Shown one piece after another: positions 11,181-27,198 of a stretch of DNA of 64,000 nt (position 1 is its first letter; every line of letters begins with the position of its first letter). The DNA is from an uncultured Pelagibacteraceae bacterium (GTDB taxonomy: Bacteria > Pseudomonadota > Alphaproteobacteria > Pelagibacterales > Pelagibacteraceae): contig CACJMW010000004.1 in NCBI GenBank assembly GCA_902594655.1, forward strand, positions 1-64,000, read 5' to 3'. Position numbers and translations under genes: made by a program. The notes under the pieces were generated by a model that searched no databases, was not told where the DNA came from, and saw nothing but the letters and a program-made list of their open reading frames with translations.

Positions 11181-12194
11181 ATGCACAAAATTATTGTTAC
11201 TGGCGGACTAGGTTTTATAGGAAGTAATTTAATTAACCTTTTATTAAAGAAAAATTTTAAAGTTTTAAATATTGACAAAATAACCTATGCATCTAACTTT
11301 TATAATACAAATGAATTCAGCAAAAATAAAAACTATAAATTTATAAAATGTGATCTTTGCAATAAAAACAAATTAAAAAGATTAATTGATAAATATAAAC
11401 CTAATGGAATTTTTAATCTTGCTGCAGAAACACATGTTGATAGATCAATAGATGGTCCAAAGAATTTTATTTATTCAAATATTATTGGAACTTTTAATTT
11501 ATTGGAAATAATTAGAAATAATAAAAAAAAAATAAAACTCGTTCATATTTCAACGGATGAAGTATATGGAGATATTATCAAAGGTAGATCTAAAGAAGAT
11601 GATGCTTATAAACCTAGTTCACCTTATTCTGCTACAAAAGCATCATCTGATCACTTGGTAAGCTCATATATAAGAACTTATAAAATCCATGGAATAGTTA
11701 CTAATTGTTCAAATAATTATGGACCAAGACAACATCCTGAAAAACTAATACCAAAACTCATTTACAATATAATCAATAATAAAAAATTGCCAATATATGG
11801 AAAAGGAAAAAATTCTAGAGAATGGATATTTGTTGATGATCATTGTGAAGCTCTTATCAAAGTTTACCAAACTGGTAAAATAGGTGAATTTTATAATATT
11901 GGATCTAATTACAATCTAGATAATCTAGCAGTGGTTAAGAAATTAATAAATATTTCAAAGAAGAAAATCAAAATAGGAAATAATGTTAAAATTTATTTTG
12001 TAAAAGATAGACCTGGTCACGATAAGAGATATGCTATAGATAGTAACAAAATTAAGAAAAAAATAAATTGGAAACCTAGAATTAAATTTATGGATGGGTT
12101 AGAAAAAACATTTAATTGGTATCTAAATAATCAAAATTATTTTTTAAAATTGAAGAAAAATGATATTTTAAAAAGACTAGGAACAAAAAATTGA
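11181..12194 (+). CDS. rfbB: dTDP-glucose 4,6-dehydratase
   Basis: 'IIVTGGLGFIGSNLINLLL', 'LAAETHVDRSIDGP', 'SPYSATKASSDHLV', 'NNYGPRQHPEKLIP'. Confidence 0.92.
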   Translation: MHKIIVTGGLGFIGSNLINLLLKKNFKVLNIDKITYASNFYNTNEFSKNKNYKFIKCDLCNKNKLKRLIDKYKPNGIFNLAAETHVDRSIDGPKNFIYSNIIGTFNLLEIIRNNKKKIKLVHISTDEVYGDIIKGRSKEDDAYKPSSPYSATKASSDHLVSSYIRTYKIHGIVTNCSNNYGPRQHPEKLIPKLIYNIINNKKLPIYGKGKNSREWIFVDDHCEALIKVYQTGKIGEFYNIGSNYNLDNLAVVKKLINISKKKIKIGNNVKIYFVKDRPGHDKRYAIDSNKIKKKINWKPRIKFMDGLEKTFNWYLNNQNYFLKLKKNDILKRLGTKN

Positions 12195-13063
12195 TTAAAA
12201 AGGGAATTATTTTATCTGGAGGCATGGGTACTCGTATGAGCCCATTAACTAAAGCTGTCAACAAGCAACTTCTTCCAATATACGATAAGCCACTTATATT
12301 TTACCCACTCTCAATACTAATGTTGGCAAAAATTAAAGATATTTTGATTATTGTAAACAAAGGCCAATTAAATCAATATAAAAAAATATTACCAGATGGA
12401 AAAAGGCTTGGAATAAATATTGCTTTCAAAGAACAGGAAAGTCCAAAAGGTTTACCGGATGCTTTTATACTTGGAGAAAAATTTATAAAAAATCAAAATG
12501 TAGCTCTTATACTTGGAGATAATTTTTTCTATGGACAATATCTTACACAAAAATTAATTGACTGTACAAAAATGAAAAAAGGAGCAACAGTTTTATTACA
12601 TAAAGTTTCTAAACCTGAGCTATATGGTGTAGCAAAGATTAATAAAAAAAATAAAATTACTTTAATAAAAGAAAAGCCAAAGAAGAAATTTTCAGATCTA
12701 GCCATTACTGGACTTTATTTTTTTGATAGTAAAGTTGTTGAATATTCAAAAAAACTAAAACCATCTAAAAGAAACGAGCTTGAAATCACAGATTTATTAA
12801 AAATTTATATGAAAAAAAAAGCTTTGAAAGCAGACTTTATTGGTAGAGGTGGGGCTTGGCTAGATACAGGTTCTATTGAAGATTTTTATAAAACTAGCGC
12901 TTTTGTTTCAGCAATTGAAAATAGACAAGGATTTAAAATTGCTTGCCTAGAAGAAATTTCATTATTAAATGGATGGATTTCTAAAAAAAATATATTAGAA
13001 GCAATCAGCTTTTATGGGAAATGTGAATACTCACAATATTTAAACAAATTAATAAATACATGA
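12191..13063 (+). CDS. rfbA: Glucose-1-phosphate thymidylyltransferase (TTG start)
   Basis: 'GIILSGGMGTRMSPLTKAVNKQLLPIYDKPLIFYPLS', 'LILGDNFFYG'. Confidence 0.92.
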   Translation: MIKKGIILSGGMGTRMSPLTKAVNKQLLPIYDKPLIFYPLSILMLAKIKDILIIVNKGQLNQYKKILPDGKRLGINIAFKEQESPKGLPDAFILGEKFIKNQNVALILGDNFFYGQYLTQKLIDCTKMKKGATVLLHKVSKPELYGVAKINKKNKITLIKEKPKKKFSDLAITGLYFFDSKVVEYSKKLKPSKRNELEITDLLKIYMKKKALKADFIGRGGAWLDTGSIEDFYKTSAFVSAIENRQGFKIACLEEISLLNGWISKKNILEAISFYGKCEYSQYLNKLINT

Positions 13064-13587
13064 AAATTTATAAAACTGGATTTGATGAACTTTATGTTCT
13101 TCAAGGAGAAAGGTTTTCCGATAGTAGAGGTTTTTTAAGGGAGATTTTTAAAAAAAATTTGGTCAAAGAAAAAATGGTTTTTTCAGTAGTATCATCATCA
13201 AAAAGAAATGTAATAAGAGGATTGCATATACAAAAAAAAAATTCTCAAGCAAAATTCGTAACTGTTATTAAAGGAGAAATTTTAGACGTTGCGGTAGATT
13301 TAAGAAAAAATTCAAAAACTTTTGGAAAACATTTCAAAATTATTCTAAATGATAGAAACTCTAAATTTCTTTTCATACCCAAAGGCTTTGCGCACGGATT
13401 TCTAGCCAAAAAAAAAGAAAATCTTGTTTTGTATAGTTGTTCAAAATATAGAGAACCCCATCAAGAAAGATCAATACTATGGAATGATCCAAAGCTTTCA
13501 ATTAATTGGGGAATTAAAAAACCAATTATATCAAAAAAAGATAAAACTGCTTCTAGTTTTGATAAATTTTTAAAAGAAAAAAAATGA
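13060..13587 (+). CDS. rfbC: dTDP-4-dehydrorhamnose 3,5-epimerase family
   Basis: 'DSRGFLREIFKK', 'VIRGLHIQKK', 'IPKGFAHGFLA'. Confidence 0.88.
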   Translation: MKIYKTGFDELYVLQGERFSDSRGFLREIFKKNLVKEKMVFSVVSSSKRNVIRGLHIQKKNSQAKFVTVIKGEILDVAVDLRKNSKTFGKHFKIILNDRNSKFLFIPKGFAHGFLAKKKENLVLYSCSKYREPHQERSILWNDPKLSINWGIKKPIISKKDKTASSFDKFLKEKK

Positions 13588-14759
13588 TTTTTTTAGATCT
13601 TGGATATCAACCTTTGGCAAATGAGTATTTAAAAAATACTAATTCAAAAGAAAAAAAATATAGACTTTTGGTTGATTTCAACAAGAAAAGCAAAATTGTT
13701 TCAATTAAAAAAAAATTCTCTAGCAAAAAAATGTTTAAAAATAATTACCCTTATAGATCATCAATGTCAAAAACAATGACTCAAAGTTTCAAAACTTTTG
13801 CAAAAGATTTAAAAAAAAAATTTAAAAAAAAAAAAATTTTAGAAATTGGCTGTAACGATGGTGTATTTCTTGAAAATTTTAATAAATCTTTTTCATTAGG
13901 TATTGAACCTTGTTCTAATATCGCTCAATTATCAAAAAAAAAAGGTCTTAATGTTATTATTAAATACTGGAATCAAAGAACAGCTTTAAAAATAAGAAAA
14001 AAATTCGGTCATTTTGATCTTATATATTCTGCTAATACAATTACTCATATAAAAAATTTAAATGATGTTTTTAAATCAATAAATTTAGTTCTCAGTGATA
14101 CTGGAACTCTAATAATCCAAGATCCATCCATGTTGGAATTGTTAAAAAAAAATGCATATGATCAATTTTATAATGAACATATCTATGTTTTTTCATATGT
14201 ATCTTTATCTAAATTACTAGATAAACATAAGTTGTATATTTATAAAATTAAAAATATTTCTGAACATGGAGGTTCAATTAGATATTTTATTAAGAAAAAA
14301 ATTTCAAAAAATGTTATTGATAAATCTGTTAAAATCCAACTTCAAAAAGAAATAAAATTTGGTTTAAAAAAATTTACTACATATAAAAAATTTGGATTTG
14401 ATGTTAATAAATCTAAAAATAAACTTAAAAATATATTAGCGAAATTAAAAAATCTAAATAAAAAAGTAATTGGATATGGTGCAACTGCGAAGGCAGTTAC
14501 AGTTTTAAATTATTGTAATATTGGTAATGATATCATTAAATTTTTTTATGACACAACCCCTGAAAAGCATAATAAGTTTATACCCGGTGTAAAAATACCT
14601 GTCAAAAAGTATAGAATTTTAAATACTAAAGAAGTAGATTATGCTTTTCTTGGCGCTTGGAATTTTAAAAAAGAAATATATCAAAAAGAAAAAAAATTCT
14701 TAAAGTCTGGCGGCAAGTTTATAACTCACATACCCAAACCAAAGATTTTAAGCTATTAA
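13584..14759 (+). CDS. NDP-sugar C-methyltransferase-like SAM-dependent methyltransferase
   Basis: 'ILEIGCNDGVFLENF', 'DQFYNEHIYVFSYVSL', 'EHGGSIRYFI', 'GYGATAKAVTVLNYCNI'. Confidence 0.83.
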   Translation: MIFLDLGYQPLANEYLKNTNSKEKKYRLLVDFNKKSKIVSIKKKFSSKKMFKNNYPYRSSMSKTMTQSFKTFAKDLKKKFKKKKILEIGCNDGVFLENFNKSFSLGIEPCSNIAQLSKKKGLNVIIKYWNQRTALKIRKKFGHFDLIYSANTITHIKNLNDVFKSINLVLSDTGTLIIQDPSMLELLKKNAYDQFYNEHIYVFSYVSLSKLLDKHKLYIYKIKNISEHGGSIRYFIKKKISKNVIDKSVKIQLQKEIKFGLKKFTTYKKFGFDVNKSKNKLKNILAKLKNLNKKVIGYGATAKAVTVLNYCNIGNDIIKFFYDTTPEKHNKFIPGVKIPVKKYRILNTKEVDYAFLGAWNFKKEIYQKEKKFLKSGGKFITHIPKPKILSY

Positions 14760-14760
14760 A

Positions 14761-16893
14761 ATGTTTTCTGAAGAAAAAAAGTTTAAAAGTTTTATATTAA
14801 TTTCAATTTTAATCTGGCCTTTTATTTTTCTTTTTCCATTAAGTTTAGGAATTATTGTAATGGGTAATGATTTCGATCTGATTTATTTTTCTTACAAAAG
14901 ATATATAGCTGAAATGCTATCAGTTGGTGTGGTACCTCTTTGGTCTCCGTCTGAAGGTTCTGGAATGAGTTTAATCTTTAATCCTTTTGCGCAATACTTT
15001 TATATCCCAGGATGGATCAACTATCTAATATATTTTATTACCGAAAGTTTAACTCTTCATACATTTCTAAATTACACAATTTTTGGTTTATCAATTTTTT
15101 CTTTAGGAATTTACAAGTGGTTGAGAAGTTTAAAAATTAATCTCTATATTTGCGCTATTGTAGCAATATTAATTGTTTGCAATCTGAAATTAACTGAATT
15201 ACTCAGATTTCCAAACGCCGTCCACTCAGCAGCTTGGTTCCCATGGATACTATATGGAATAAATTCTATTACACACAATGGTAAATTTTGGAGAGGTTTT
15301 ATAGTTATTTTTTTTTCAAACTCATTTTTAATTACAGCTGGTTACCCTTATTTTATTGTTTATTCCCTTTTTCTTTTTGGTTTTTATATTGCCATTGTTT
15401 GTCCTATATTTTTAGTATCAGATAAAAATAATTTTAAAATTGTAAGCATTTTTAGCTTGTATATAAAAAATATAATTCCATTTGCGCTTTCTTATTTATT
15501 AGCACTTCCATGGTTATTAAATGTAAAATTTTTTTTAAAAAATTTAGTTGATAGGACAGAAAATAATTGGGAATTTTCAACAGAGCATAATTTTAACTGG
15601 ATAGATACTTTAGGCTCATGGATATATCCGCCTGCTTCAACTACTGAGGGATGGTACTATTCAGGAATATTGATTTCTATTTTAATTATTTTTTTAATAA
15701 CTTTACTTTTTAGAAAAGACTTTATTAGTAATATCGATCGAAAATTAATTTTATTTTCATTTTTTTTTATTATTTTTATTACTTACTTTTCATGGGTTCA
15801 AAGCTCATTTTTGTTTAAATGGTCATGGGAAAATTTACCATTAATAGGTTCACTAAGAACTTGGCCAAGGTTAAATATTACTCTATTGCCATTTATTGCT
15901 TTGTTATTGGCTTATTCAATTAAATATATTGAATTAATTTTAAGAGAAAATCAAAAAATTAAATCAAGCGTAGTAACTTTCATATTAATCTCATTTTCAT
16001 TAATATTCTTACAAGTGTGTCTTAATATTTTTGATATTAAAGATGCTGAATATTGGGGTTATTGGCAAAAATTACGTTTTGAATATGCAATCGAGTCGAC
16101 ACCAAATATAATTGGTTACTTTATTAGTTTATATAATGGAGAAATTTATATTATATTTAATATCATTTCATTGATATTAATTTCCATACTTTTCCTTAAA
16201 AGAAAAAAAATTAATTTACGCAAGTTTAAATTATTATTTATTTTTTTGTTAATCTTTACTGTTTCTGCAGAGTTATTTATTATTTCGAATTTGCAATGGG
16301 GACTTGATAAATGGAAAACAAATTATATTCAAACTTCTAATCCATTATATGAATTAAGAATGGCATTTAACAAAAAAAAAATAATTGATACAGTAAAAGG
16401 TAACGAATATTTTAGAGATAACAAAAGATTTAACGTAAACTATCCAGACAACTATGGTTATAATTCTCATGCAAAAAACTTTACAAAATACTTTGAAAGA
16501 TATGGTGGAAAAATTAAAGAAGGAGTGGATGAGGCGGACATTTATTATGTAAAGAAATTTTATGGAAATTCTGAACCGTACAAAAAAATATTTTTTTCAG
16601 AAAATATAAAATACGAAAATATTGTAAACTTCATGAAAGATAGTGACTTATATGAAATAAACTCTAATTTTAATCATAGAATTTTGCTTGAAAAATATGA
16701 CGGTAATAATGTTGAAATAAATATTACAACAGACCAAATGGGATGGGTTAGTTACATTGATAATTGGGATAGAGACTGGGAGGCATATGTTAATAATGAT
16801 AAAGTAGAAATATATAAATTGCTTGGATCTTACAAAAGTATTAAAGTTAAAAAAGGTTTTTCAAATATTAAATTTCAGTATAAACCTTGGTAA
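14761..16893 (+). CDS. Large multi-pass membrane protein, YfhO/GT-C-like
   Basis: Many TM segments, 'LWSPSEGSGMSLIFNPFAQYFYIPGW'; C-terminal soluble beta-rich tail 'WDRDWEAYVNNDKVEIYK' as in YfhO proteins. Confidence 0.6.
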   Translation: MFSEEKKFKSFILISILIWPFIFLFPLSLGIIVMGNDFDLIYFSYKRYIAEMLSVGVVPLWSPSEGSGMSLIFNPFAQYFYIPGWINYLIYFITESLTLHTFLNYTIFGLSIFSLGIYKWLRSLKINLYICAIVAILIVCNLKLTELLRFPNAVHSAAWFPWILYGINSITHNGKFWRGFIVIFFSNSFLITAGYPYFIVYSLFLFGFYIAIVCPIFLVSDKNNFKIVSIFSLYIKNIIPFALSYLLALPWLLNVKFFLKNLVDRTENNWEFSTEHNFNWIDTLGSWIYPPASTTEGWYYSGILISILIIFLITLLFRKDFISNIDRKLILFSFFFIIFITYFSWVQSSFLFKWSWENLPLIGSLRTWPRLNITLLPFIALLLAYSIKYIELILRENQKIKSSVVTFILISFSLIFLQVCLNIFDIKDAEYWGYWQKLRFEYAIESTPNIIGYFISLYNGEIYIIFNIISLILISILFLKRKKINLRKFKLLFIFLLIFTVSAELFIISNLQWGLDKWKTNYIQTSNPLYELRMAFNKKKIIDTVKGNEYFRDNKRFNVNYPDNYGYNSHAKNFTKYFERYGGKIKEGVDEADIYYVKKFYGNSEPYKKIFFSENIKYENIVNFMKDSDLYEINSNFNHRILLEKYDGNNVEINITTDQMGWVSYIDNWDRDWEAYVNNDKVEIYKLLGSYKSIKVKKGFSNIKFQYKPW

Positions 16894-16899
16894 AATAGT

Positions 16900-17646
16900 A
16901 TGAGCAAAAATATTTCATCAAAAAAAGTTTATGCAATGGTAATTTCATACAATAGTGCTCCTGTTTTAGGTGATTTATATGAAAGAATAGATAAAGATAA
17001 CTTTGATAAAGTTTATTTTTTTGACGATAACTCAAAAGATAACTCAGCAGACATTGCTAAAAATTATGATTGGATAGTTATTAAAAACGAAAAAAATTTA
17101 GGTCATGGTGGTAATTTAAAACAAGCGCTAAAGACTATATTTAATGATGGTGCTGATTATGCGGTTGAAATACATGCTGACAATCAATATTCACCAAATG
17201 AAGTATCTAAAGCTAAAGAGATGATAGAAAATGATTATGATTTAATTATTGGATCTAGATTTAAAAACAAAAATCCTTTTTTGAAAGATGGCATGCCTTT
17301 TTTAAGATATTTTACTAATAAAATGATGAGTTTATTTACTAGCAAATTATTTGGTATCAAGCTTACTGAATTTCATACAGGTTGCAAAATATATAGTAAA
17401 AATTTTTGTGAGAATGTGCCTGTTTATAAAAACTCCGACAATTATCTTTTTTCTTTTCAAATTATTTTACAAGCAAGTTTCTATAAAAAAAAATATGGAG
17501 AGATCAGCATATCTTCTAGTTATCAAGGATATAAAACTTCGTGCAATTATTCTAATGGATTAATATATTTATTAGGTAACTTCAAATATATGTTAATCTA
17601 CATTCTTGTTAAATTAAAATTGATGAAATCAGAAATTTTTTCATAA
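16900..17646 (+). CDS. Glycosyltransferase family 2 (dolichol-phosphate-mannose synthase-like)
   Basis: 'AMVISYNSAPVLGDLYERI', 'VYFFDDNSKDNSADIAKNY', 'DLIIGSRFKNKNPF'. Confidence 0.85.
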   Translation: MSKNISSKKVYAMVISYNSAPVLGDLYERIDKDNFDKVYFFDDNSKDNSADIAKNYDWIVIKNEKNLGHGGNLKQALKTIFNDGADYAVEIHADNQYSPNEVSKAKEMIENDYDLIIGSRFKNKNPFLKDGMPFLRYFTNKMMSLFTSKLFGIKLTEFHTGCKIYSKNFCENVPVYKNSDNYLFSFQIILQASFYKKKYGEISISSSYQGYKTSCNYSNGLIYLLGNFKYMLIYILVKLKLMKSEIFS

Positions 17647-18182
17647 TGTTTAAAAAAAAAACTAAATTTTCAAATTTATTTGTTTTTGAAAGTAAAAGAT
17701 TTAATGATAAAAGGGGCTTTTTAAGGGAACTTTATATAGAAAAAAAAATAGGTAAAAATCTTAAGTTTGCAATTGTATCCTCATCTAAAAAAAATGTAGT
17801 TAGAGGAATGCATTTCCAAACTAAATATGCGCAAGAAAAATTAATCACTGTTATAAAAGGGAAAATTTTAGACGTAGTAGTAGATATTAGAAGAAATTCA
17901 AAAACATTTGGCAAGCATTTTAAAGTTGTGCTTAGTGAAAATAACTCAAAGTTTTTGTATGTACCTGAAGGTTTTGCTCATGGTTTTTTAGCATTAGGAA
18001 AAGAAAATATTGTTGTTTATTATTGTTCTAATTATAGAAATGCAAAATATGAAAAATCTATAAATTGGAATGATAAAAAATTGAAAATCAATTGGGGTAT
18101 AAAAAAACCAATTATTTCAGCTAAAGATAAAAACGCACTATCCTTAATGGATTACATTAGTCAATTCGATAAAACGACTTAA
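17646..18182 (+). CDS. dTDP-4-dehydrorhamnose 3,5-epimerase paralog
   Basis: Closely similar along its length to the 13060..13587 product ('VIKGKILDVVVDIRRNSKTFGKHFKVVLSENNSKFLYVPEGFAHGFLA'). Confidence 0.85.
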   Translation: MFKKKTKFSNLFVFESKRFNDKRGFLRELYIEKKIGKNLKFAIVSSSKKNVVRGMHFQTKYAQEKLITVIKGKILDVVVDIRRNSKTFGKHFKVVLSENNSKFLYVPEGFAHGFLALGKENIVVYYCSNYRNAKYEKSINWNDKKLKINWGIKKPIISAKDKNALSLMDYISQFDKTT

Positions 18183-19005
18183 GTTTGAAGTAAGCAGCCA
18201 ATATTCCAAGAAGTTCGGCTTTATGACATCTAAATTCAAACATTTTAAGTTTAATTATACTAATAAAAATTCCTTTTAATGATTTAATTAGATTTGGAAA
18301 TGTTTTACTAAAACCAACAAAATAACTTTTGTGTTTGTTGTAATAATAGAATTTTGACCAGCAATAATGCCAATTTCTTAGAATTTCATATTTATTTTTA
18401 TGCGTAACATCAATTGATCCTTTTCCTTCGTGTTCTATATTTATATTTTCAAGTAAATAAATTTTTCTACCAGTATTTTTACATCTTTGATAAAAATCAG
18501 CTTCTTCAAAATATAAAAAGAAATTTTCATCAAAACCACCAACTTTATTAAAGACATATCTATCAAACATCATTACACAACCTGTATTAAATTTTACAAA
18601 TCTCAAACCAGTGATTTTATCCCTACCAATTATCAAATCTTTATAATTTTGTCCTTTAATCTTTGCAGTTAAGACTCCAAAATTTTTTGTTTTTTTTGCC
18701 TGATTATATAATTTATTAATTTGTGAATTTGTTATTTTAGTATCTATATCTAAATACAAAACAAATTTGGTTTTAGCTTTTTTTACTCCAAAATTTAATC
18801 CCGCACCAAAACCTTTATTTTTATTAGGAAAATAAACTTTTATTTTACGATTCTTTAAGAATTTATTTTTTATAAATTTATCATTTGAGTTTTCTACAAT
18901 TATAATATTTAAATTTTTGTTAATTTTAGAAATAATTTTAGTAATACTTTTCCTTGATTTAAATGATACAAGAATAATTGTAAGTTCGTCTTTTTTAATA
19001 CTCAT
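18157..19005 (-). CDS. Glycosyltransferase family 2, paralog of 10273..11133
   Basis: 'NKGFGAGLNFGVKKAKTKFVLYLDIDT', 'FFLYFEEADFYQRC', 'RNWHYCWSKFYYYNKH'. Confidence 0.83.
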   Translation of the reverse strand: MSIKKDELTIILVSFKSRKSITKIISKINKNLNIIIVENSNDKFIKNKFLKNRKIKVYFPNKNKGFGAGLNFGVKKAKTKFVLYLDIDTKITNSQINKLYNQAKKTKNFGVLTAKIKGQNYKDLIIGRDKITGLRFVKFNTGCVMMFDRYVFNKVGGFDENFFLYFEEADFYQRCKNTGRKIYLLENINIEHEGKGSIDVTHKNKYEILRNWHYCWSKFYYYNKHKSYFVGFSKTFPNLIKSLKGIFISIIKLKMFEFRCHKAELLGILAAYFKLKSFYRID

Positions 19006-19652
19006 TTTAGAAATAATAAATTCATAGAAAAAGTTTTACATTTAGTTTTTGCAGAAATATATTTATTTTCATTTCTAGATTTAAATTCTAAGTTCAGTTT
19101 TTGATTTTTAAAATATTTTACTACTTTTTGAAAGGAGTGAATATTTTGATTTAAATTTTTACTATTTTTTTGCTTTGCAATATATGTTTTGGAAAGTGAT
19201 AAGGGTGTATGTGTAATTAAAATTGCTAATGTATTTTTAAAATTTATGTCATTAAGAATATTTAGGTCATCTAAATATTGTATCGAAGATCCAAAATTAA
19301 TTATGTCCCATTTTTTTTTAAGAATTTTTTTATCACTGAAAATTTCAATATTATTATACCTTGATATTTTTTTTTTATTAAATGGATCAAAAATTGATAT
19401 CTTGTAGTTATTTAGATCAATTTTATTTTCCAAATTTGAATATGGAGTCAAATTACTTCCGTAATCAAGTATTTTCACTTTTTTTTTATTTTTTTTAAAA
19501 TATGTAAGAATAATAGAAACACAAAACAAATCTCTTACATGATTATAGAGGCCACTTTCAACATAGTTGAATTTATTTTTTTTGTTAAATTTAACTATTT
19601 TTTTTATCAAAGATAAATTGCTATTGTATTTATGCCAATTAAATATATTCAT
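19002..19652 (-). CDS. Putative methyltransferase-like protein in the sugar cluster
   Basis: 'KILDYGSNLTPYS' resembles a SAM-binding motif I; low-complexity, remote. Confidence 0.4.
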   Translation of the reverse strand: MNIFNWHKYNSNLSLIKKIVKFNKKNKFNYVESGLYNHVRDLFCVSIILTYFKKNKKKVKILDYGSNLTPYSNLENKIDLNNYKISIFDPFNKKKISRYNNIEIFSDKKILKKKWDIINFGSSIQYLDDLNILNDINFKNTLAILITHTPLSLSKTYIAKQKNSKNLNQNIHSFQKVVKYFKNQKLNLEFKSRNENKYISAKTKCKTFSMNLLFLK

Positions 19653-19681
19653 GTATCTAATATTAAAAAATAAACAAATTA

Positions 19682-20086
19682 ATGTCTTTGTTATACAAAA
19701 AAAACTTTAAAATATATAAAAAAAAAAGTGGCAACCTTATTCCTTTCTCTTTTAAAAAAGATATTCCTTTTAATGCTAAACGTGTTTTTTTAGTTTATGG
19801 GAATAAAGGATATGTTAGAGCAAAACATGCTCACTACAAATGTCAACAATATATAGTAGCTCTATCTGGAAGTATTCAGATTAATTATCAAACAAATAAA
19901 ATTAAATCTAAAATAATTTTAAACAATCGGTTAAAAAAAGGTTTTTTTTCAAAACCATTAACCTGGTTGGAAATCAAATTTTTGACAAAGAATTGTATAA
20001 TTATGATTTTTTGTGATATGGAGTATAAATATAGCGATTATATAGTAAACTATAAAAAATTTCTAAAATTAATTAAATCAAAATGA
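19682..20086 (+). CDS. FdtA/WxcM-like cupin (dTDP-sugar ketoisomerase family)
   Basis: 'AKRVFLVYGNKGYVRAKHAHYKCQQYIVALSGSIQI' and 'LTWLEIKFLTKNCIIMIFCDMEYKYSDYI'. Confidence 0.75.
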   Translation: MSLLYKKNFKIYKKKSGNLIPFSFKKDIPFNAKRVFLVYGNKGYVRAKHAHYKCQQYIVALSGSIQINYQTNKIKSKIILNNRLKKGFFSKPLTWLEIKFLTKNCIIMIFCDMEYKYSDYIVNYKKFLKLIKSK

Positions 20087-21006
20087 ATATTTTAATTACC
20101 GGTGCTTGCGGACATATTGGTTCATATATAGCTGAAAATATTTTTAAAATTAATAAAGTTAAAAAAGTATATCTTGTTGACGATCTTAAACATGGAAAAA
20201 TTAATACATTATTTAATTCAAAAAAGAAAAATAAATTAAAATTTTTTATTTGCGATGTAAGTAAAAAAAATAGTCTGAATTTTTTAAAAAATATAAAAGT
20301 TGTAATTCATTTAGCATCATTAACTAATGCGGCAGGAAGTTTTAGAATAAAAAAACAAATGTACAAAAATAATTTAGAATGCTTCAGAAATGTTATTAAT
20401 TTTTGTAAAAAAAATAAATCTAAATTAATTCATATTTCATCAACAAGTGTTTATGGAAAACAGGCCGATATTGTTGATGAAGACTCGGGACAAAAATTTT
20501 TAAACCCTCAATCACCTTATGCTGACATAAAATTAATAGAAGAAAAAATATTAGAAAAAGAAAAGAAAAAATTAAAGTTTGTGACTTTTAGGTTTGGCAC
20601 TATTGCGGGTATATCTAAAGGCATGAGATTTCACACGGCTGTAAATAAATTTTGCTTAAATGCTGTTTTAAATTTACCCATACAGGTTTACTCAACCGCT
20701 TTAAATCAGTATAGACCATATTTATCACTAACAGATGCATTTAAGATTTTCAAATTTTGTATAGAAAAAAATCTATTTAATAATCAAGTTTATAACGCTT
20801 TATCAGGAAATTTTACAGTAAATCAAATAATAAATAAAATAAGAAAACATAAAAAAAAACTAAAAATAAAATTTATAAAATCGGAAATCATGAACCAGTT
20901 ATCTTATCACGTTAGTAACTCCAAACTTAAAGAGGCTGGATTAAATTTAAATAATAATTTAGAAAAAGATATACGAAACACATTATCATTACTAAGGAAT
21001 ATATAA
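20083..21006 (+). CDS. NAD-dependent epimerase/dehydratase
   Basis: 'ILITGACGHIGSYIAENI', 'VIHLASLTNA', 'SPYADIKLIEEKIL'. Confidence 0.85.
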   Translation: MNILITGACGHIGSYIAENIFKINKVKKVYLVDDLKHGKINTLFNSKKKNKLKFFICDVSKKNSLNFLKNIKVVIHLASLTNAAGSFRIKKQMYKNNLECFRNVINFCKKNKSKLIHISSTSVYGKQADIVDEDSGQKFLNPQSPYADIKLIEEKILEKEKKKLKFVTFRFGTIAGISKGMRFHTAVNKFCLNAVLNLPIQVYSTALNQYRPYLSLTDAFKIFKFCIEKNLFNNQVYNALSGNFTVNQIINKIRKHKKKLKIKFIKSEIMNQLSYHVSNSKLKEAGLNLNNNLEKDIRNTLSLLRNI

Positions 21007-22203
21007 ATGAATTGCAAGATTACTGGATCAAAAGTTACTCCATTTATGTCATTTGGAAAAATGCCAATTGCTAATGGTTTTTTAAAAAAAAAAAGTTTTA
21101 AAACCGAATTTTTTTATGAAATGAAAGTGGGATTTTCAAAAAAGATTTCTTTATTTCAGCTTTTAAACCATCCAAAACCTAAACAAATGTTTAATAGAAA
21201 TTATCCATTTTTTACCGGTAGTTCAAAAGGAATGGTAATGCATTTTGAAAAGTACGCATCATGGATTAAAAAAAAATTTGGAAAAAATTTAAATAATTTG
21301 GTTGAAATTGGATCTAATGATGGAACTTTTTTATCTAATTTTAAAAATACTAAAATAAACTTAACAGGTGTTGAGCCATCGTCAAATGTAGCCAAAATTT
21401 CGAAAAAAAAAGGAATTAAAACAATTAATAAGTTTTTTAATTATGCAAATGTTAAAAAATTAAACCATTTAAAACAAAAAGTTGATGTTATATGTGCAGC
21501 GAATGTTATTTGTCACATACCTGATCTTAAAAGTCTAATTAAAGGTATAGATTTTTTGTTAAACAAAAAGGGTGTTTTTATATTTGAAGAACCATATTTA
21601 GGATCGATGTATAAAAAAACCTCATATGATCAAATATATGATGAGCATATATATATATTTTCTGTCCATTCTATAAAAAAAATTTTTAATTTATTTGGAT
21701 TTGATCTGATCGATACTTTGCCCCAGCAAACTCATGGTGGATCAATGAGATATGTAATTGCAAGAAAAAAAGAGTACAAAATATCAAAAAAAGTATTTCA
21801 ATATTTAAAAAAAGAAAAAAATAATAATATCGATACTATTAAAGGGTGTTTGAAATTTAAAATTAATTGTGAAAGATCAAAAAGAAAATTAATTAAAAAA
21901 ATTAAATTATTAAAATCTCAAAATAAAAAAATTGCTGGTTATGCTGCTACCTCAAAAAGTACTACTGTTTTAAATTACTGTAATATTGGAAATACGCAAA
22001 TTGACTTCATTTGTGATACTACTAAAGAAAAGATTGGCAAATATTCACCTGGAATGCATATACCTATAAAAACAATGAATTTTTTTTACAATAACGTTCC
22101 AGATGTTGCGTATTTGTTTGCATGGAATCATAAAAAAGAGATTTTTAAAAAAGAAAATAAAATTAAAAAAAAAATTAAATGGATTTCACATGTTGAAATA
22201 TAA
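21007..22203 (+). CDS. C-methyltransferase-like SAM-dependent methyltransferase, paralog of 13584..14759
   Basis: 'LVEIGSNDGTFLSNF', 'DQIYDEHIYIFSVHSIKKIF', 'THGGSMRYVIA', 'GYAATSKSTTVLNYC'. Confidence 0.83.
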   Translation: MNCKITGSKVTPFMSFGKMPIANGFLKKKSFKTEFFYEMKVGFSKKISLFQLLNHPKPKQMFNRNYPFFTGSSKGMVMHFEKYASWIKKKFGKNLNNLVEIGSNDGTFLSNFKNTKINLTGVEPSSNVAKISKKKGIKTINKFFNYANVKKLNHLKQKVDVICAANVICHIPDLKSLIKGIDFLLNKKGVFIFEEPYLGSMYKKTSYDQIYDEHIYIFSVHSIKKIFNLFGFDLIDTLPQQTHGGSMRYVIARKKEYKISKKVFQYLKKEKNNNIDTIKGCLKFKINCERSKRKLIKKIKLLKSQNKKIAGYAATSKSTTVLNYCNIGNTQIDFICDTTKEKIGKYSPGMHIPIKTMNFFYNNVPDVAYLFAWNHKKEIFKKENKIKKKIKWISHVEI

Positions 22204-22921
22204 AAAAATATTATTTACTGGCTCTAGTGGAAGATTTGGATCTGTTTTTAAAAAAATAAATAAAGAATCGAATTATTTATATCCTTCTAAAAAACAATTA
22301 AATATTACTAATAAAAAATCTGTAGAAAATTATTTCAATAAAAAAAAAATTAATTTAGTAGTCCATGCGGCTGCTCTATCTAGACCTATGGATTTACATG
22401 AAAATAATATCAGTAAGAGTATTTCTACAAATATAATTGGAACATCCAATTTAGTAAATGAATGTTATAAAAAGAAAATTAAAATTATATATATCTCTAC
22501 AAATTATGTTTACCCCGGTGTTAAAGGTAATTACAAAGAAACTTCAAATTTAAATCCAATTAATAATTACGCTTGGTCGAAACTTGGTGGGGAATGTGCG
22601 GTAATGATGTATAAAAATTCTTTAATTTTAAGAGTGTGTATGACAGAAAGGCCATTTATTCATAAATCTGCCTTTTCAAATCTTAAAACAAATTTTATTT
22701 ACCACGATCAAGTTGCAAAATTTTTACCTAAATTGTTTAAATATAAAGGAATACTCAATGTAGGTGGAAAAATAAGAACAGTATATAAATTTGCAAGACG
22801 GAGTAATCCTAAAATTAAAGCAAAAAAATTTATAAAAAAGTCAAAATTGCTAAAGATTAATACATCAATGAATATAAATAAATTAAGAAGAATTTTAACT
22901 AATAAGCGTTTTGTTTTATAA
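22190..22921 (+). CDS. RmlD-like dTDP-4-dehydrorhamnose reductase / SDR (start refined from 22103)
   Basis: 'KILFTGSSGRFGSVF', 'VVHAAALSRP', 'ISTNYVYPGVKGNYKETSNLNPINNYAWSKLGGE'; internal ATG overlaps the end of the upstream gene. Confidence 0.75.
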   Translation: MLKYKKILFTGSSGRFGSVFKKINKESNYLYPSKKQLNITNKKSVENYFNKKKINLVVHAAALSRPMDLHENNISKSISTNIIGTSNLVNECYKKKIKIIYISTNYVYPGVKGNYKETSNLNPINNYAWSKLGGECAVMMYKNSLILRVCMTERPFIHKSAFSNLKTNFIYHDQVAKFLPKLFKYKGILNVGGKIRTVYKFARRSNPKIKAKKFIKKSKLLKINTSMNINKLRRILTNKRFVL

Positions 22922-22931
22922 AAAAATTTTT

Positions 22932-23008
22932 TGGTAGCGGGAAGTGGGATCGAACCACTGACCTCGGGCTTATGAGTCCCGCGCTCTAACCAACTGAGCT
23001 ACCCCGCC
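22932..23008 (-). tRNA. tRNA-Met (CAT anticodon, elongator-type)
   Basis: Reverse complement GGCGGGGTAGCTCAGTTGGTTAGAGCGCGGGACTCATAAGCCCGAGGTCAGTGGTTCGATCCCACTTCCCGCTACCA folds as a cloverleaf. Confidence 0.93.
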
Positions 23009-23103: not shown

Positions 23104-23739
23104 ATGGTAGAATTTTTAATAACAAATAAATTTATTGTAAAAATATTGGCTAGTGGTTTTTTTGGATTCCTAATAAAATTATTTTTAGAAAAAACTAACC
23201 AAAAGTGGCTATCAACATATCATCATACGTTAACGTTTATTCTGCTACCAATGATAACTTGTGGAATTACTGACTCTATAAAATCAAATATTGCTTTATC
23301 TTTAGGTTTGGTGGGCGCTCTATCAATTGTTAGATTTAGAAATCCTGTAAAAAATACATTTGAATTAGTAATTTATTTTGCTTTAATTTCACTCGGAATA
23401 ATTGCTACAGTAAATATTTTTTATGCAGCGTATTTCGAAATTATAATTTTATCAACAATTGTGTTCGTATATTTAATAGATCAATTTTATGAAAAAAAAG
23501 GAAAAAAAATTCACCATCTGTCTTTCTCAGAAGGAACCCACTTATACGCACTTGAAATTGAGTCAAATCAAAAAATATCAATTTTGGAAAATAATGAATT
23601 TTTGATTCAAAAGATTTACATTAAAGAAAATAACAAATTTTATTACAAACTTTCTGCATCTAAAAAGTCAGATATAAACAATATTGAAAATATGATTAAA
23701 AATGATCAAAGCATTACAAGGATTGAAAGCGTTTTTTAA
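23104..23739 (+). CDS. DUF4956-family membrane protein
   Basis: 'LSLGLVGALSIVRFRNPVKNTFELVIYFALISLGIIATVN' typical of DUF4956; next to CotH and VTC genes. Confidence 0.75.
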   Translation: MVEFLITNKFIVKILASGFFGFLIKLFLEKTNQKWLSTYHHTLTFILLPMITCGITDSIKSNIALSLGLVGALSIVRFRNPVKNTFELVIYFALISLGIIATVNIFYAAYFEIIILSTIVFVYLIDQFYEKKGKKIHHLSFSEGTHLYALEIESNQKISILENNEFLIQKIYIKENNKFYYKLSASKKSDINNIENMIKNDQSITRIESVF

Positions 23740-25984
23740 AATTAACATTATCAAAAATTGTTACATTATACTATTTTTATTTTTTTTATCTAACTACTCT
23801 TTTGCAAAAATTGAGAATAAGTATTTTCCTGAAATTATAGACAATAAAAGTGACTTTTGTAAAAAACATAACAAAAATTTTACAAATCATAAAATTTTAC
23901 TTGAACATTTAAATTTTATAAGAATTGAGGTAAACGATCAAAATAAATGGTATAAGAACTTATTTAGAGCAATCACATGGCATGGAATAAATACTCCTGA
24001 AAGATTTAAAAATAATTATAAATCAAAAATTATAATTAATTTTAAGGAAGACATGGAGTGTAAATTTAATGCAAGAATAAGAATTCATGGAGATGGTAAA
24101 GATCACCAAAAGTTTTCTATCAATGGAGATCCTTATACAAGTTTACATGTAAGACTAACTGACGAAAATATTGACTCTATAACTAGATTCATCTTATTTA
24201 TACCCGAAACTAGAAATGGTGATAATGAGATTTTTACAAGCGAATTATTTAATCAATTAGGTTTTTTGGCTCCGCGCACAAAGTATGTAAAAGCCATAGT
24301 AAATGGAAAAGAAAATAAATATATTTTTCAGGAAAAAGTAAGTAAAGAGATGTTAGAATTTAACAATCTTACTGAAGGCCCTATTATAGAGGCTAGTCAT
24401 AGGTTTTTGTGGCCTAATGATAAAACAAATTATATCGATACAACATTAATTCAAGGAAGAATTAGTAATCAAAATTGGGCGATTAAAAATTTATTTAATA
24501 TAAAAAAAACCACTATGGCTTTAACAAAGTTTAATGAAACAATATTGGAAGAATCCTCAACACATTTTAATATTAATAATTTAGTAGACCAAGATGAAAA
24601 ATCTAAAAAAGAGTTCAATGAATATCAAGCTCTATTGATTTCTCTTGGAGGCTTCCATGGTATTTGGCCTACAAATGCAAAATACTATTTTGATCCAATA
24701 GATTTAACATTTAGACCGATATATTATGATGGAAATACTGAAATATTAAATAAAGATAGCGATAAAAACTTTTATTCTCGAGACATAGAATATTTTACAA
24801 TTTATTCAAAAGAAGGGTCTAAATCATCAATTAGAAAAGTTGAAAATTTGAATATTGCTGATTTTCAAAAAAAATTAAAAGAAAATGGTTTAAACATAAG
24901 TTTAGAACTACTATCAAATGTTAAAGAAAAAATAATTGAACGTTTAAAAGAAATCAACAAAATGCCAATCAGTCAAAGACAATTTGTGGCTAAAAAATCA
25001 TATTATTCAACTTATAAAAATGGGAATGAAAATAAAAAAATAGTATTTTTAGATGATGATCCAAGTAACATTAAAATTTGTAATTTTGACTTAATAGAAT
25101 GTAAAAATGAAAGATTAAGCCTAGATGAGATCAGTAAATTATTTAGTGATGAGCTTTCAAAAGAAGATGTACATTATATTTTTGTATCAAATGATTTAGA
25201 AAATTATAGAAATGGCTTTATATTTAATAGTAGAGATATTTTAAATAAATTCTTTGAGAAAATTTTTATTGATGACACGGAAATTTTATATTCTAGTGGT
25301 ATTAAAATCAATCTTGATGAAAATTTAAAAAAGATACATTTTATTCAAACTAATAATGAACAAGTAGTCCTTTTTAAAGGAGGAAATATAAAAAATTGGA
25401 CTATAAAATTTGAAGGGAAAGAAAATTTTTATGAAACAGATAATTTTTATTCTGGCTGTATAAATTTCTCAAATATTAAAATAACTAATATCAATTTAAT
25501 TATTGATAATGCATCATGTAATGATGCTGTTAATTTTATCAATTCTTACGGTGATATAAAAAAATTAAATATTAATTTTTCAAAAGTTGATGCCATTGAC
25601 TTAGATTTTTCTATATTAGAAATTAAAGATATCAATGTGTCTGATGCATTAAATGATTGCTTAGATATGTCATATGGTAATTATGTAGTAAATATTTTAA
25701 AATTAGCAAATTGTGGAGACAAAGCAATTTCAGTAGGAGAAAACTCTTTATTCGTAGGTAAAGATATATCAATAGAAAATGCTTTAGTAGGGGTAGCAAC
25801 AAAAGATAGTTCTATATCAAATATAGATACAATTTATATTGATAATTCCAAACTCTGTGCTGCTGCCTATAGGAAGAAGCAAGAATTTTATGGTGCAAGT
25901 ATTAACATAAATAATTTAAATTGTGATACTAAAACAATATATTTTCAAGATGGTTCGGATATTAATATAGCAAATGAGCTTTAG
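23702..25984 (+). CDS. CotH kinase-like secreted protein with long C-terminal beta-rich domain
   Basis: Signal peptide; 'CKFNARIRIHGDG', 'YIFQEKVSKEML', 'KYYFDPIDLTFRPIYYDGN'. Confidence 0.72.
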   Translation: MIKALQGLKAFFKINIIKNCYIILFLFFLSNYSFAKIENKYFPEIIDNKSDFCKKHNKNFTNHKILLEHLNFIRIEVNDQNKWYKNLFRAITWHGINTPERFKNNYKSKIIINFKEDMECKFNARIRIHGDGKDHQKFSINGDPYTSLHVRLTDENIDSITRFILFIPETRNGDNEIFTSELFNQLGFLAPRTKYVKAIVNGKENKYIFQEKVSKEMLEFNNLTEGPIIEASHRFLWPNDKTNYIDTTLIQGRISNQNWAIKNLFNIKKTTMALTKFNETILEESSTHFNINNLVDQDEKSKKEFNEYQALLISLGGFHGIWPTNAKYYFDPIDLTFRPIYYDGNTEILNKDSDKNFYSRDIEYFTIYSKEGSKSSIRKVENLNIADFQKKLKENGLNISLELLSNVKEKIIERLKEINKMPISQRQFVAKKSYYSTYKNGNENKKIVFLDDDPSNIKICNFDLIECKNERLSLDEISKLFSDELSKEDVHYIFVSNDLENYRNGFIFNSRDILNKFFEKIFIDDTEILYSSGIKINLDENLKKIHFIQTNNEQVVLFKGGNIKNWTIKFEGKENFYETDNFYSGCINFSNIKITNINLIIDNASCNDAVNFINSYGDIKKLNINFSKVDAIDLDFSILEIKDINVSDALNDCLDMSYGNYVVNILKLANCGDKAISVGENSLFVGKDISIENALVGVATKDSSISNIDTIYIDNSKLCAAAYRKKQEFYGASININNLNCDTKTIYFQDGSDINIANEL

Positions 25985-26585
25985 AAAAGAAATTAAATTT
26001 ATACTACATAAATCTAAGGAAGATAATTTTCTAAAGTGGATTCAAAATAATGGTGCTAAATTACTATATAAGCAAAGAAATATTACATCGATATACTTTG
26101 ATAATGAAATGTCTATGATGTATCATGATTCTGTTGAAGGTATTGTTCCCAGAAAAAAAATTAGACTAAGAAAATATAATCAAAATAATAATTTTTTATT
26201 TGAGATGAAAATTTCATCTACAGATGGAAGATTTAAGAAAAGTGAAAAATGTGAAAATTTTAAAAGTTTATTAGATAGAGGTATTGTCGATTATCAGTAT
26301 GGTTTATGTAAACCGCAAATTATAATTAACTATAATAGAAATTATTTTAGCTACAAAAATTTTAGAATTACTCTTGATAAAGATATAAATTATTTGAAAT
26401 ACTATAAAGACAATAAATTTTCACCAGCCTTTAATGATGATGAAATTGTTGCTGAAGTTAAAGGTATTAAAGTGGATCAAGATTTTCTGGACCAGAATTT
26501 CCCTTTTACTTCTGCTAGGTTCTCAAAATATTGCAGAGGGGTAGATTTAATTAATCAAGAAAAATCAAGTTCAATCAATTTATAA
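25974..26585 (+). CDS. VTC-domain (polyphosphate polymerase-like) protein
   Basis: 'RKEIKFIL', 'TSIYFDNEMSMMYHDSVEGIVPRKKIRLRKYN', 'FLFEMKI'. Confidence 0.75.
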   Translation: MSFRKEIKFILHKSKEDNFLKWIQNNGAKLLYKQRNITSIYFDNEMSMMYHDSVEGIVPRKKIRLRKYNQNNNFLFEMKISSTDGRFKKSEKCENFKSLLDRGIVDYQYGLCKPQIIINYNRNYFSYKNFRITLDKDINYLKYYKDNKFSPAFNDDEIVAEVKGIKVDQDFLDQNFPFTSARFSKYCRGVDLINQEKSSSINL

Positions 26586-26643: not shown

Positions 26644-27198
26644 TTAATTTTTATCTATTGATCCTATAATATTATAATTTTTATTGGCAATTACTATTTC
26701 ACCTGAGGAAACTCCTATATTTAACATTTCTAATATAACAACGTAATGTGTTACAAATATTAAGTTTTTTTTTCCATCCCAATCTTTTATGAATTTTTTC
26801 AAGTCTTTGATTTGTTTTTCTTTGAATTTATAGAACTTCTCATCATAAAAGGAATTTAATGCATTGAAAGTTATAAAATTTTTAAAAGCATACCTTGCTG
26901 TATCTTTACATCTGCACCATTCACTAGATAAAACTTTATTAATTGGAATATTATTTCTTCTAAAAAAATCTCCTATCTTTTTTGATTGATTTATACCTTG
27001 ATCATTAAGATTCCTTTGGGTACTACAATCTTTTAAATCAAAGTTATCCGGATCGCCATTTCCTGGGGCAAGTGCATGTCTTATAAAGACTATATTTCCT
27101 CCAGATTGTAATCTCAGGATTAATTGTTCATTTGAAAAAGTAGATGTTGGAAAATTTATAGATATAATTAAATATATTATTAAAATAAAATATTTCAC
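26644..27198 (-). CDS. Histidine phosphatase family protein, secreted
   Basis: 'GGNIVFIRHALAPG' RHG-like motif, 'SSEWCRCKDTA', 'IFVTHYVV'. Confidence 0.8.
   Translation of the reverse strand: MKYFILIIYLIISINFPTSTFSNEQLILRLQSGGNIVFIRHALAPGNGDPDNFDLKDCSTQRNLNDQGINQSKKIGDFFRRNNIPINKVLSSEWCRCKDTARYAFKNFITFNALNSFYDEKFYKFKEKQIKDLKKFIKDWDGKKNLIFVTHYVVILEMLNIGVSSGEIVIANKNYNIIGSIDKN

Follow-up and report, generated by a model that had tools for sequence, protein, structure and literature searches.

What could a DUF4956 membrane protein, a secreted CotH-like protein and a VTC-type polymerase domain do together in a marine bacterium? In the window (the whole stretch of 64,000 nucleotides analysed here), these proteins of 211, 760 and 203 aa are encoded, in the order DUF4956-CotH-VTC, by three intact ORFs on the plus strand (23104-23739, 23702-25984 and 25974-26585). 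The ORF coordinates give overlaps of 38 nt between DUF4956 and CotH (23702-23739, +) and of 11 nt between CotH and VTC (25974-25984, +), so that the end-to-start arrangement of the original prediction stands, and in most relatives the junctions are likewise short or overlapping. Results showed that, of 80 public loci, 72 have VTC close to DUF4956 and always on its strand, while CotH was recognised by profile or Pfam in at least 57 of the 80. In a set of 399 genomes of Pseudomonadota, 8 carry DUF4956 and 7 have VTC above cut-off, all 7 being among the 8 DUF4956 carriers (hypergeometric p about 3e-14); in the control genomes the two families occur in the same 3 of 14, and CotH accompanies them in 2 of those. 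This co-occurrence and adjacency support the view that the three genes form one functional unit, as had been proposed. The trio is a widely conserved unit across phyla and not a chance cluster: the idea of chance neighbours without common function, already refuted by the locus adjacency and the 399-genome co-occurrence, keeps next to no probability. Among 101 relatives, 16 genomes carry the trio. Ocean SAR11 and Prochlorococcus are among its hosts.

The third gene (25974-26585, +) encodes a protein matching PF09359 with 82.2 bits (cut-off 23; E 5e-23), and the profile of its family matches yeast Vtc4 (3g3q, E 1.7e-13). Residues R64, R66, E160, K162 and K185 correspond to Vtc4 R264, R266, E426, K428 and K458, and R64, R66, E160 and K185 are invariant or nearly so among 15 homologues; in yeast, joint substitution of Vtc4 R264/R266/E426 inactivates VTC (PMC9911596). 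Polymerases and triphosphatases among TTM proteins are told apart by four acidic-patch positions (PMC4641920); at these, the window protein is basic as in Vtc4 at two (R4, K162), acidic at one (E6, a triphosphatase-like state at that single position) and unmapped at the fourth. Neither the window protein nor any of 89 homologues has a TM helix or a signal peptide. Judged by profile and Vtc4 homology, this is a cytosolic, VTC-type triphosphate-tunnel polyphosphate polymerase domain of the TTM superfamily, which probably has polymerase activity, making polyphosphate from ATP. The polyphosphate link originally suggested is thus supported by the Vtc4 residues that the window protein has kept. Our literature search found no characterised VTC protein from bacteria, and no experiment shows a bacterial VTC/DUF4956 pair making or exporting polyphosphate. 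The absence of PPK was rejected as the reason for having VTC, as PPK is present in some trio genomes and missing in others.

The first gene (23104-23739, +) encodes a member of DUF4956 (PF16316, 44.5 bits, cut-off 30.6, E 1.8e-11), a family for which we know of no function. Its predicted build is a set of hydrophobic helices followed by a C-terminal ACT-like domain (AF2 pLDDT 88.8), with the near-invariant motif S-x-G-x-x-G-A-L-S-I-V-R-F-R; S66, G68, G71-I75 and R77-R79 do not vary among 36 sequences drawn from several phyla, and K83 is common. In a structure search with the model, ACT-domain matches were weak (E > 0.01) and neither the VTC channel nor any known transporter gave a significant match. 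No test in our analysis indicates homology with the Vtc TM domains.

The central gene (23702-25984, +) starts with a signal peptide or N-terminal hydrophobic stretch (...CYIILFLFFLSNYSFA/K..., 23702-23809, +), read from the sequence and a hydrophobicity scan, which supports the envelope location proposed for its product. The predicted compartments of the trio are cytosol for VTC, membrane for DUF4956 and secretion for the CotH-like protein. Ordinary annotation gave the latter no Pfam CotH or NCBIfam match, and its PF08757 score (18.1 bits) is below the cut-off of 23.8, which homologues in seven relatives do pass. Foldseek with the AF2 model (mean pLDDT 79.6, pTM 0.79) returned Bacillus cereus CotH first (5jda/5jd9; E = 3.9e-10, prob 1.00 for 5jda) and, together with those seven relatives, bears out a CotH-type, protein-kinase-fold identity. 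Residue comparison of the kinase-fold half (residues about 66-420; 23897-24961, +) showed that E211, K215 and D343 are kept, D343 being equivalent to D251 of B. subtilis CotH, and that the D228 equivalent is absent (...LGGFHGIWPTN...); both D228Q and D251A yield a dead B. subtilis CotH (PMC7821199). The original prediction was right about the fold, but ordinary protein kinase activity is not to be assumed for a protein missing this catalytic Asp. In 22 marine sequences, Asp occupies the D228 position in 3 and H319 is found in 20, while D343 and E211 stay; H135 is also conserved in this marine subfamily, whereas canonical trio CotHs keep the Asp and have no pyrophosphatase. From these alignments, the CotH-like protein belongs to a divergent subfamily in which the usual catalytic Asp is mostly lost and two conserved His are gained. 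With the Bacillus spore-coat kinase (5jda) it shares the fold, E211 and D343, and it differs by the missing D228 equivalent, the two new His, its beta-helix tail and its marine Gram-negative host.

The long beta-rich tail noticed earlier proved, by AF2 and Foldseek, to be a predicted right-handed parallel beta-helix (residues about 515-760; 25244-25981, +), whose strands mostly exceed pLDDT 90 and which is more conserved than the kinase half. It contains an invariant Asp/Lys/Glu set (D608, D630, D633, D635, D652, D655, D673-K674, E680, K701-D702 and K725-K726). Nearest to it are family-3 pectate lyases (Foldseek E about 1e-2, prob 0.99-1.00), with which (PF03211; 3t9g, 4z06) it shares the predicted fold and invariant Asp-Lys, while its sequence is too divergent to class as a lyase. 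PF03211 was matched by 2 of 12 relatives (best 5.7e-4) and not by the window protein, and a proven lyase was rejected for want of a PDB sequence match; the likeness appears to lie at the level of the fold and is weak in sequence. In Trichococcus and others, Cthe_2159 beta-helix carbohydrate-binding proteins adjoin the DUF4956-VTC pair, and homology of our tail to these was likewise rejected (hhalign probability 0.1%), nothing being common beyond the fold class.

We also looked at the neighbourhood of the trio. In the window, a surface-glycan cluster (11181-22921) comprises rmlB, rmlA, two rmlC, C-methyltransferases, glycosyltransferases, FdtA, an epimerase and an RmlD-like gene; at least five relatives (L042, L043, L056, L059, L061) have pieces of it close to the trio, and in six Pelagibacter loci the trio adjoins a dTDP-sugar cluster. 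Because the beta-helix is pectate-lyase-like and the dTDP-sugar cluster adjoins the trio, a surface polysaccharide is a more likely target of the CotH-like protein than the envelope protein first suggested, and we would give a glycan, not a protein, an even chance. Pel clusters elsewhere and the carbohydrate-binding Cthe_2159 proteins beside the pair are further pointers to glycans. A convergent gene for a secreted histidine phosphatase (26644-27198) was rejected as a fourth member, no homologue being found in the relatives' trio loci examined.

The combination as such is already in the literature: the same three families are published as a Pel accessory set, with cotH, PPP and DUF4956 in clusters of Streptococcus, Clostridium and Bifidobacterium (PMC7112168). 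In S. intermedius, deletion of the trio genes SIR_1592-1594 gave mild phenotypes and no mechanism was given; DUF4956 and CotH deletions had an aggregation phenotype and the VTC deletion had none, Pel output was up in the DUF4956 mutant and down in the CotH mutant, and synteny of the trio was sought outside the Pel locus without being found (PMC12345266). The literature gives no molecular function for the trio, in agreement with the original prediction. What is new is that the trio stands free of Pel in Pelagibacter, Prochlorococcus and others. Of 47 long public loci, 5 have PelG (PF16933), the trio usually having no Pel system nearby, and PelG was found neither in G000 (71% complete) nor in 100 relatives; on these 101 related genomes, a Pel locus was rejected for the genus. 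Like the Pel accessory genes, the window set unites the three families in one operon, with a CotH that is secreted and a DUF4956 that has both TM helices and an ACT domain, but it has no contiguous pelDEADAFG, its CotH is of the Asp-less, beta-helix-bearing subfamily, its order is DUF4956-CotH-VTC, and some relatives add an exported pyrophosphatase.

This pyrophosphatase is a strong new clue to how the unit works. A family-I enzyme occurs in just 4 of 101 relatives, all four Pelagibacter, each time inside the trio locus and thus in 4 of 16 trio genomes (p = 4.5e-4 counting genomes alone, and far less with adjacency), and on the CotH tree these loci occupy four distinct positions; none was found beside the window trio or in the other 80 loci. 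Three copies carry a signal peptide (PF00719, 100.8-115.7 bits; cut-off 23.5) and one is fused to a CotH-like C-terminus (105.8 bits); all four have the GDGDPxD signature, in L046 in the form GDGDALD. Their homologues include the acidocalcisomal PPase 5c5v, and acidocalcisomes pair VTC with a soluble PPase (PMC4263762). The membrane H+-pyrophosphatase HppA is present in 78 of 101 relatives, and a link between its loss and the trio was rejected, the difference (9/16 against 69/85, p 0.047) being confounded by incomplete genomes.

We propose, with a probability of about 0.4, that the module makes polyphosphate inside the cell, exports it through DUF4956 and has the CotH-like protein use it outside, where the substrate is probably a surface glycan. 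Cytosolic VTC would polymerise polyphosphate from ATP, and DUF4956, as its membrane partner, would carry the polymer chain, or else short polyphosphate, through the inner membrane, on the model of the Vtc1/3/4 TM channel of yeast. Outside, the CotH-like protein would draw phosphate from the exported polyphosphate and phosphorylate or otherwise modify a surface polymer, held on the polysaccharide by its beta-helix, while in some Pelagibacter a periplasmic pyrophosphatase would remove leftover PPi. Taken together, the closely linked pair, the compartments predicted for the proteins and a pyrophosphatase that is exported point towards polyphosphate beyond the membrane. Taken separately, export by DUF4956 seems to us slightly short of an even bet, and polyphosphate as the donor of the CotH-like protein is rather doubtful. 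The S. intermedius VTC deletion, having no aggregation phenotype, fits poorly with a strict supply chain, and the D228 loss in the window, the missing channel match of DUF4956, the Glu at one acidic-patch position of VTC, the weak sequence likeness of the beta-helix to pectate lyases and a pyrophosphatase in only a quarter of trio genomes also weigh against the proposal.

The S. intermedius mutants, with opposite effects of DUF4956 and CotH on Pel, would suit a regulatory module, in which DUF4956 (MgtC/ACT-like) senses a cytosolic ligand by its ACT-like domain, polyphosphate made by VTC is an internal signal controlling polysaccharide secretion or synthesis, and CotH, alone crossing the membrane, phosphorylates a protein of the polysaccharide machine. 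The Pel authors themselves suggested regulation by phosphorylation (PMC7112168). Such a module is unlikely in our view, as it explains neither the exported pyrophosphatase tied to the locus nor the ATP source of a secreted kinase, and the Pel system is usually missing near the trio.

Kinase folds such as SelO and SidJ have left phosphotransfer. The Asp-less CotH-like protein might similarly be a nucleotidyl- or other transferase releasing PPi, with the pyrophosphatase pulling the reaction forward; the residue pattern of the marine sequences and a pyrophosphatase adjoining, and once fused to, the CotH-like protein speak for this, but a periplasmic nucleotide donor would be needed, and since canonical trio CotHs keep the Asp and have no pyrophosphatase, this chemistry is conceivable for the marine branch alone and on the whole improbable. 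We rate just as low a system of phosphate scavenging or storage, where polyphosphate at the cell surface yields Pi through phosphatases and the CotH-like beta-helix protein is a non-catalytic scaffold. The oceanic SAR11 and Prochlorococcus hosts, the exported PPase, the divergent kinase motif beside a better conserved beta-helix and a PHO4 phosphate transporter adjoining DUF4956-VTC in 2 alphaproteobacterial genomes favour it, while the conservation of CotH across phyla and the glycan neighbours are left unexplained; PHO4, at just 2 of about 12 DUF4956-VTC pairs, was rejected as a regular partner.

Returning to exported polyphosphate, the trio resembles the eukaryotic VTC complex (PMC9911596, PMC4263762) in that its TTM polymerase domain is cytosolic and has identical active-site residues and in having an adjoining membrane protein with conserved Arg, and the acidocalcisome in having, in some relatives, a soluble pyrophosphatase on the far side; it differs by the lack of an SPX domain, the extra CotH protein and a translocation that is here only predicted. 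In its most general form, VTC and DUF4956 would be a bacterial polyphosphate synthase-translocase feeding extracytoplasmic CotH-type phosphotransferases, with the pyrophosphatase clearing the spent end, which we consider unlikely as a whole. If true, the exported-polyphosphate reading would provide a phosphate donor for secreted bacterial kinases working where ATP is absent, a counterpart in bacteria of the VTC/acidocalcisome system and an explanation for the puzzling Pel accessory genes found in oral and gut species, and with three small genes it is directly testable in E. coli.

The genome carrying the window belongs to a Pelagibacter-type SAR11 bacterium (0.9 Mb, AT-rich, 71% complete) and, judged by the trio genes, its closest named relatives are Candidatus Pelagibacter and uncultured Pelagibacteraceae. 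The three reading frames of the original prediction, all on the forward strand and encoding DUF4956 (23104-23739), a CotH-like protein (23702-25984) and VTC (25974-26585), were confirmed together with both overlaps. DUF4956 and VTC have clear Pfam assignments (PF16316 and PF09359, respectively), and no sequence-based database family was found for the middle protein, PF08757 (CotH) reaching just 18.1 bits in the genome search. An AlphaFold2 model of this protein, built from 16 sequences (the window and fetched loci), had the Bacillus cereus CotH kinase as its top structural match (E 3.9e-10), and its C-terminal half matched family-3 pectate lyases (E ~0.01). These matches show that the predicted CotH identity was right and that the tail is, as modelled, a right-handed beta-helix.

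We scanned a DUF4956 alignment against one genome per species (84,980 species) and used the best 80 of at least 575 loci, which came from Pelagibacter, Prochlorococcus, Actinobacteria, Clostridia, Paenibacillus, Trichococcus, Caldisericia, Elusimicrobia and Thiodiazotropha. VTC was present in 72 of these 80, on the same strand every time and adjacent or about one gene apart, and CotH was detected in 48 with our own profile and in at least 9 more with Pfam; such partner counts are undercounts where contigs are cut, and the genomes are mostly incomplete. Since this ranking favours loci that resemble the window, we also considered 399 Pseudomonadota genomes drawn evenly. Of these, 8 carried DUF4956 and 7 carried VTC above cut-off; all 7 were shared and had the two genes near each other (p ~3e-14). 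Among the 101 relatives (the window's own genome and 100 others), 15 of the 16 genomes concerned carry both families. The trio is one unit, as had been proposed from its gene overlaps. Regarding its distribution, two Prochlorococcus single-cell loci (L062, L063) hold the full trio, and their branching with a Pelagibacter sequence suggests that the locus moved between ocean lineages; in a third (L064), the sequence ends after DUF4956. At loci L168 and L169, a PHO4 phosphate transporter gene comes after a short DUF4956 (~190 aa) and VTC.

Pel polysaccharide clusters of Streptococcus, Clostridium and Bifidobacterium have been described with the same trio as an accessory gene set (PMC7112168), and the genes listed for the NELoc-2 locus of Clostridium perfringens likewise include both VTC and CotH (PMC2879425). 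The authors of the S. intermedius study failed to find trio synteny beyond the Pel locus. Here it does occur outside: PelG is absent from all 101 related genomes and present in just 5 of 47 long public loci. In Paenibacillus, one ORF fuses the PelG exporter with CotH (L073, 6080-9190).

The VTC family profile matches yeast Vtc4, whose R264, R266 and E426 (PMC9911596) fixed the chain offset of 185 for the alignment. R64, R66, E160, K162 and K185 of the window correspond to Vtc4 R264, R266, E426, K428 and K458. An acidic patch marks triphosphatases (PMC4641920), and a polymerase is favoured here but not proven, the patch positions being basic at R4 and K162 and acidic at E6. In B. subtilis CotH, D228Q or D251A abolishes activity (PMC7821199), and the B. 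cereus motif FDGFVHNY...PWD likewise spaces its two Asp 23 residues apart. The motif is preserved in canonical trio CotHs (NxDSYxG..HNYY...PWDYN); the window protein reads LGGFHGIWPTN...IYYD, with the second Asp at D343 and the first gone. Of 22 marine CotH-like sequences, 3 have Asp at the first position, 20 have His at H319 and 21 have Asp at D343; H135 is likewise conserved. Catalytic residues are thus retained in VTC, and in part in the CotH-like protein, which may be a dead kinase or a kinase with different chemistry.

Relatives also place a pyrophosphatase at the trio. A separate family-I inorganic pyrophosphatase gene with a signal peptide lies inside or next to it in three loci (L042, 9352-10023; L046, 8012-8635; L050, 5183-5863), and in L041 (6049-8994) a single 981-aa ORF fuses the CotH-like kinase fold, the beta-helix and a C-terminal family-I pyrophosphatase. 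The PF00719 search gave no match in the 101 relatives beyond these four, and none in the window genome (71% complete); a membrane H+-pyrophosphatase is present in 78 of the 101. The four cases share 34-46% identity and occupy four separate places on the CotH-like tree, which has long branches. These cases argue strongly that PPi, or a polymer ending as PPi, is important beyond the inner membrane, on the side where the CotH-like protein acts.

By a simple hydrophobicity scan, the polymerase is predicted to be cytosolic, DUF4956, with its invariant R-F-R, to be a membrane protein, the acceptor protein to be secreted and the pyrophosphatase to be exported. The arrangement mirrors acidocalcisomes and vacuoles, in which polyphosphate is both synthesised and translocated by VTC (PMC9911596), and a soluble pyrophosphatase lies inside the acidocalcisome (PMC4263762). 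By this analogy we favour, with a probability of roughly 0.4, a mechanism in which the cell would make polyphosphate internally, DUF4956 would export it and the CotH-like protein would use it on a surface glycan. In S. intermedius, deleting the DUF4956 gene gave more Pel and deleting the CotH gene less, each cutting aggregation by >50% in one medium; the main fact against the mechanism is that no change was reported for the polymerase-gene deletion (PMC12345266).

A dTDP-sugar/glycosyltransferase cluster (11181-22921) borders the trio in the window, and L042, L043, L056, L059 and L061 have homologues of its genes at most about 10 kb from the trio. A Cthe_2159 beta-helix carbohydrate-binding protein is encoded next to the DUF4956-VTC pair in Trichococcus and two others. 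The glycan link is not universal, since a second Pelagibacter branch has the trio among apparent housekeeping genes, judged from raw translations only. Within the cluster, rmlC-type epimerase genes occur twice (13060-13587 and 17646-18182), which suggests two dTDP-sugar branches, and no Pfam or NCBIfam family was found for a 710-aa protein (14761-16893). A tRNA-Met (22932-23008, reverse strand), possibly an insertion boundary, separates the cluster from the trio. On the other side, 58 bp past the trio, a convergent gene (26644-27198, reverse strand), not found at the trio loci of the relatives compared, encodes a secreted histidine-phosphatase-superfamily protein (PRK06193-like), so that a phosphatase and a kinase-fold protein, both secreted, are encoded close together.
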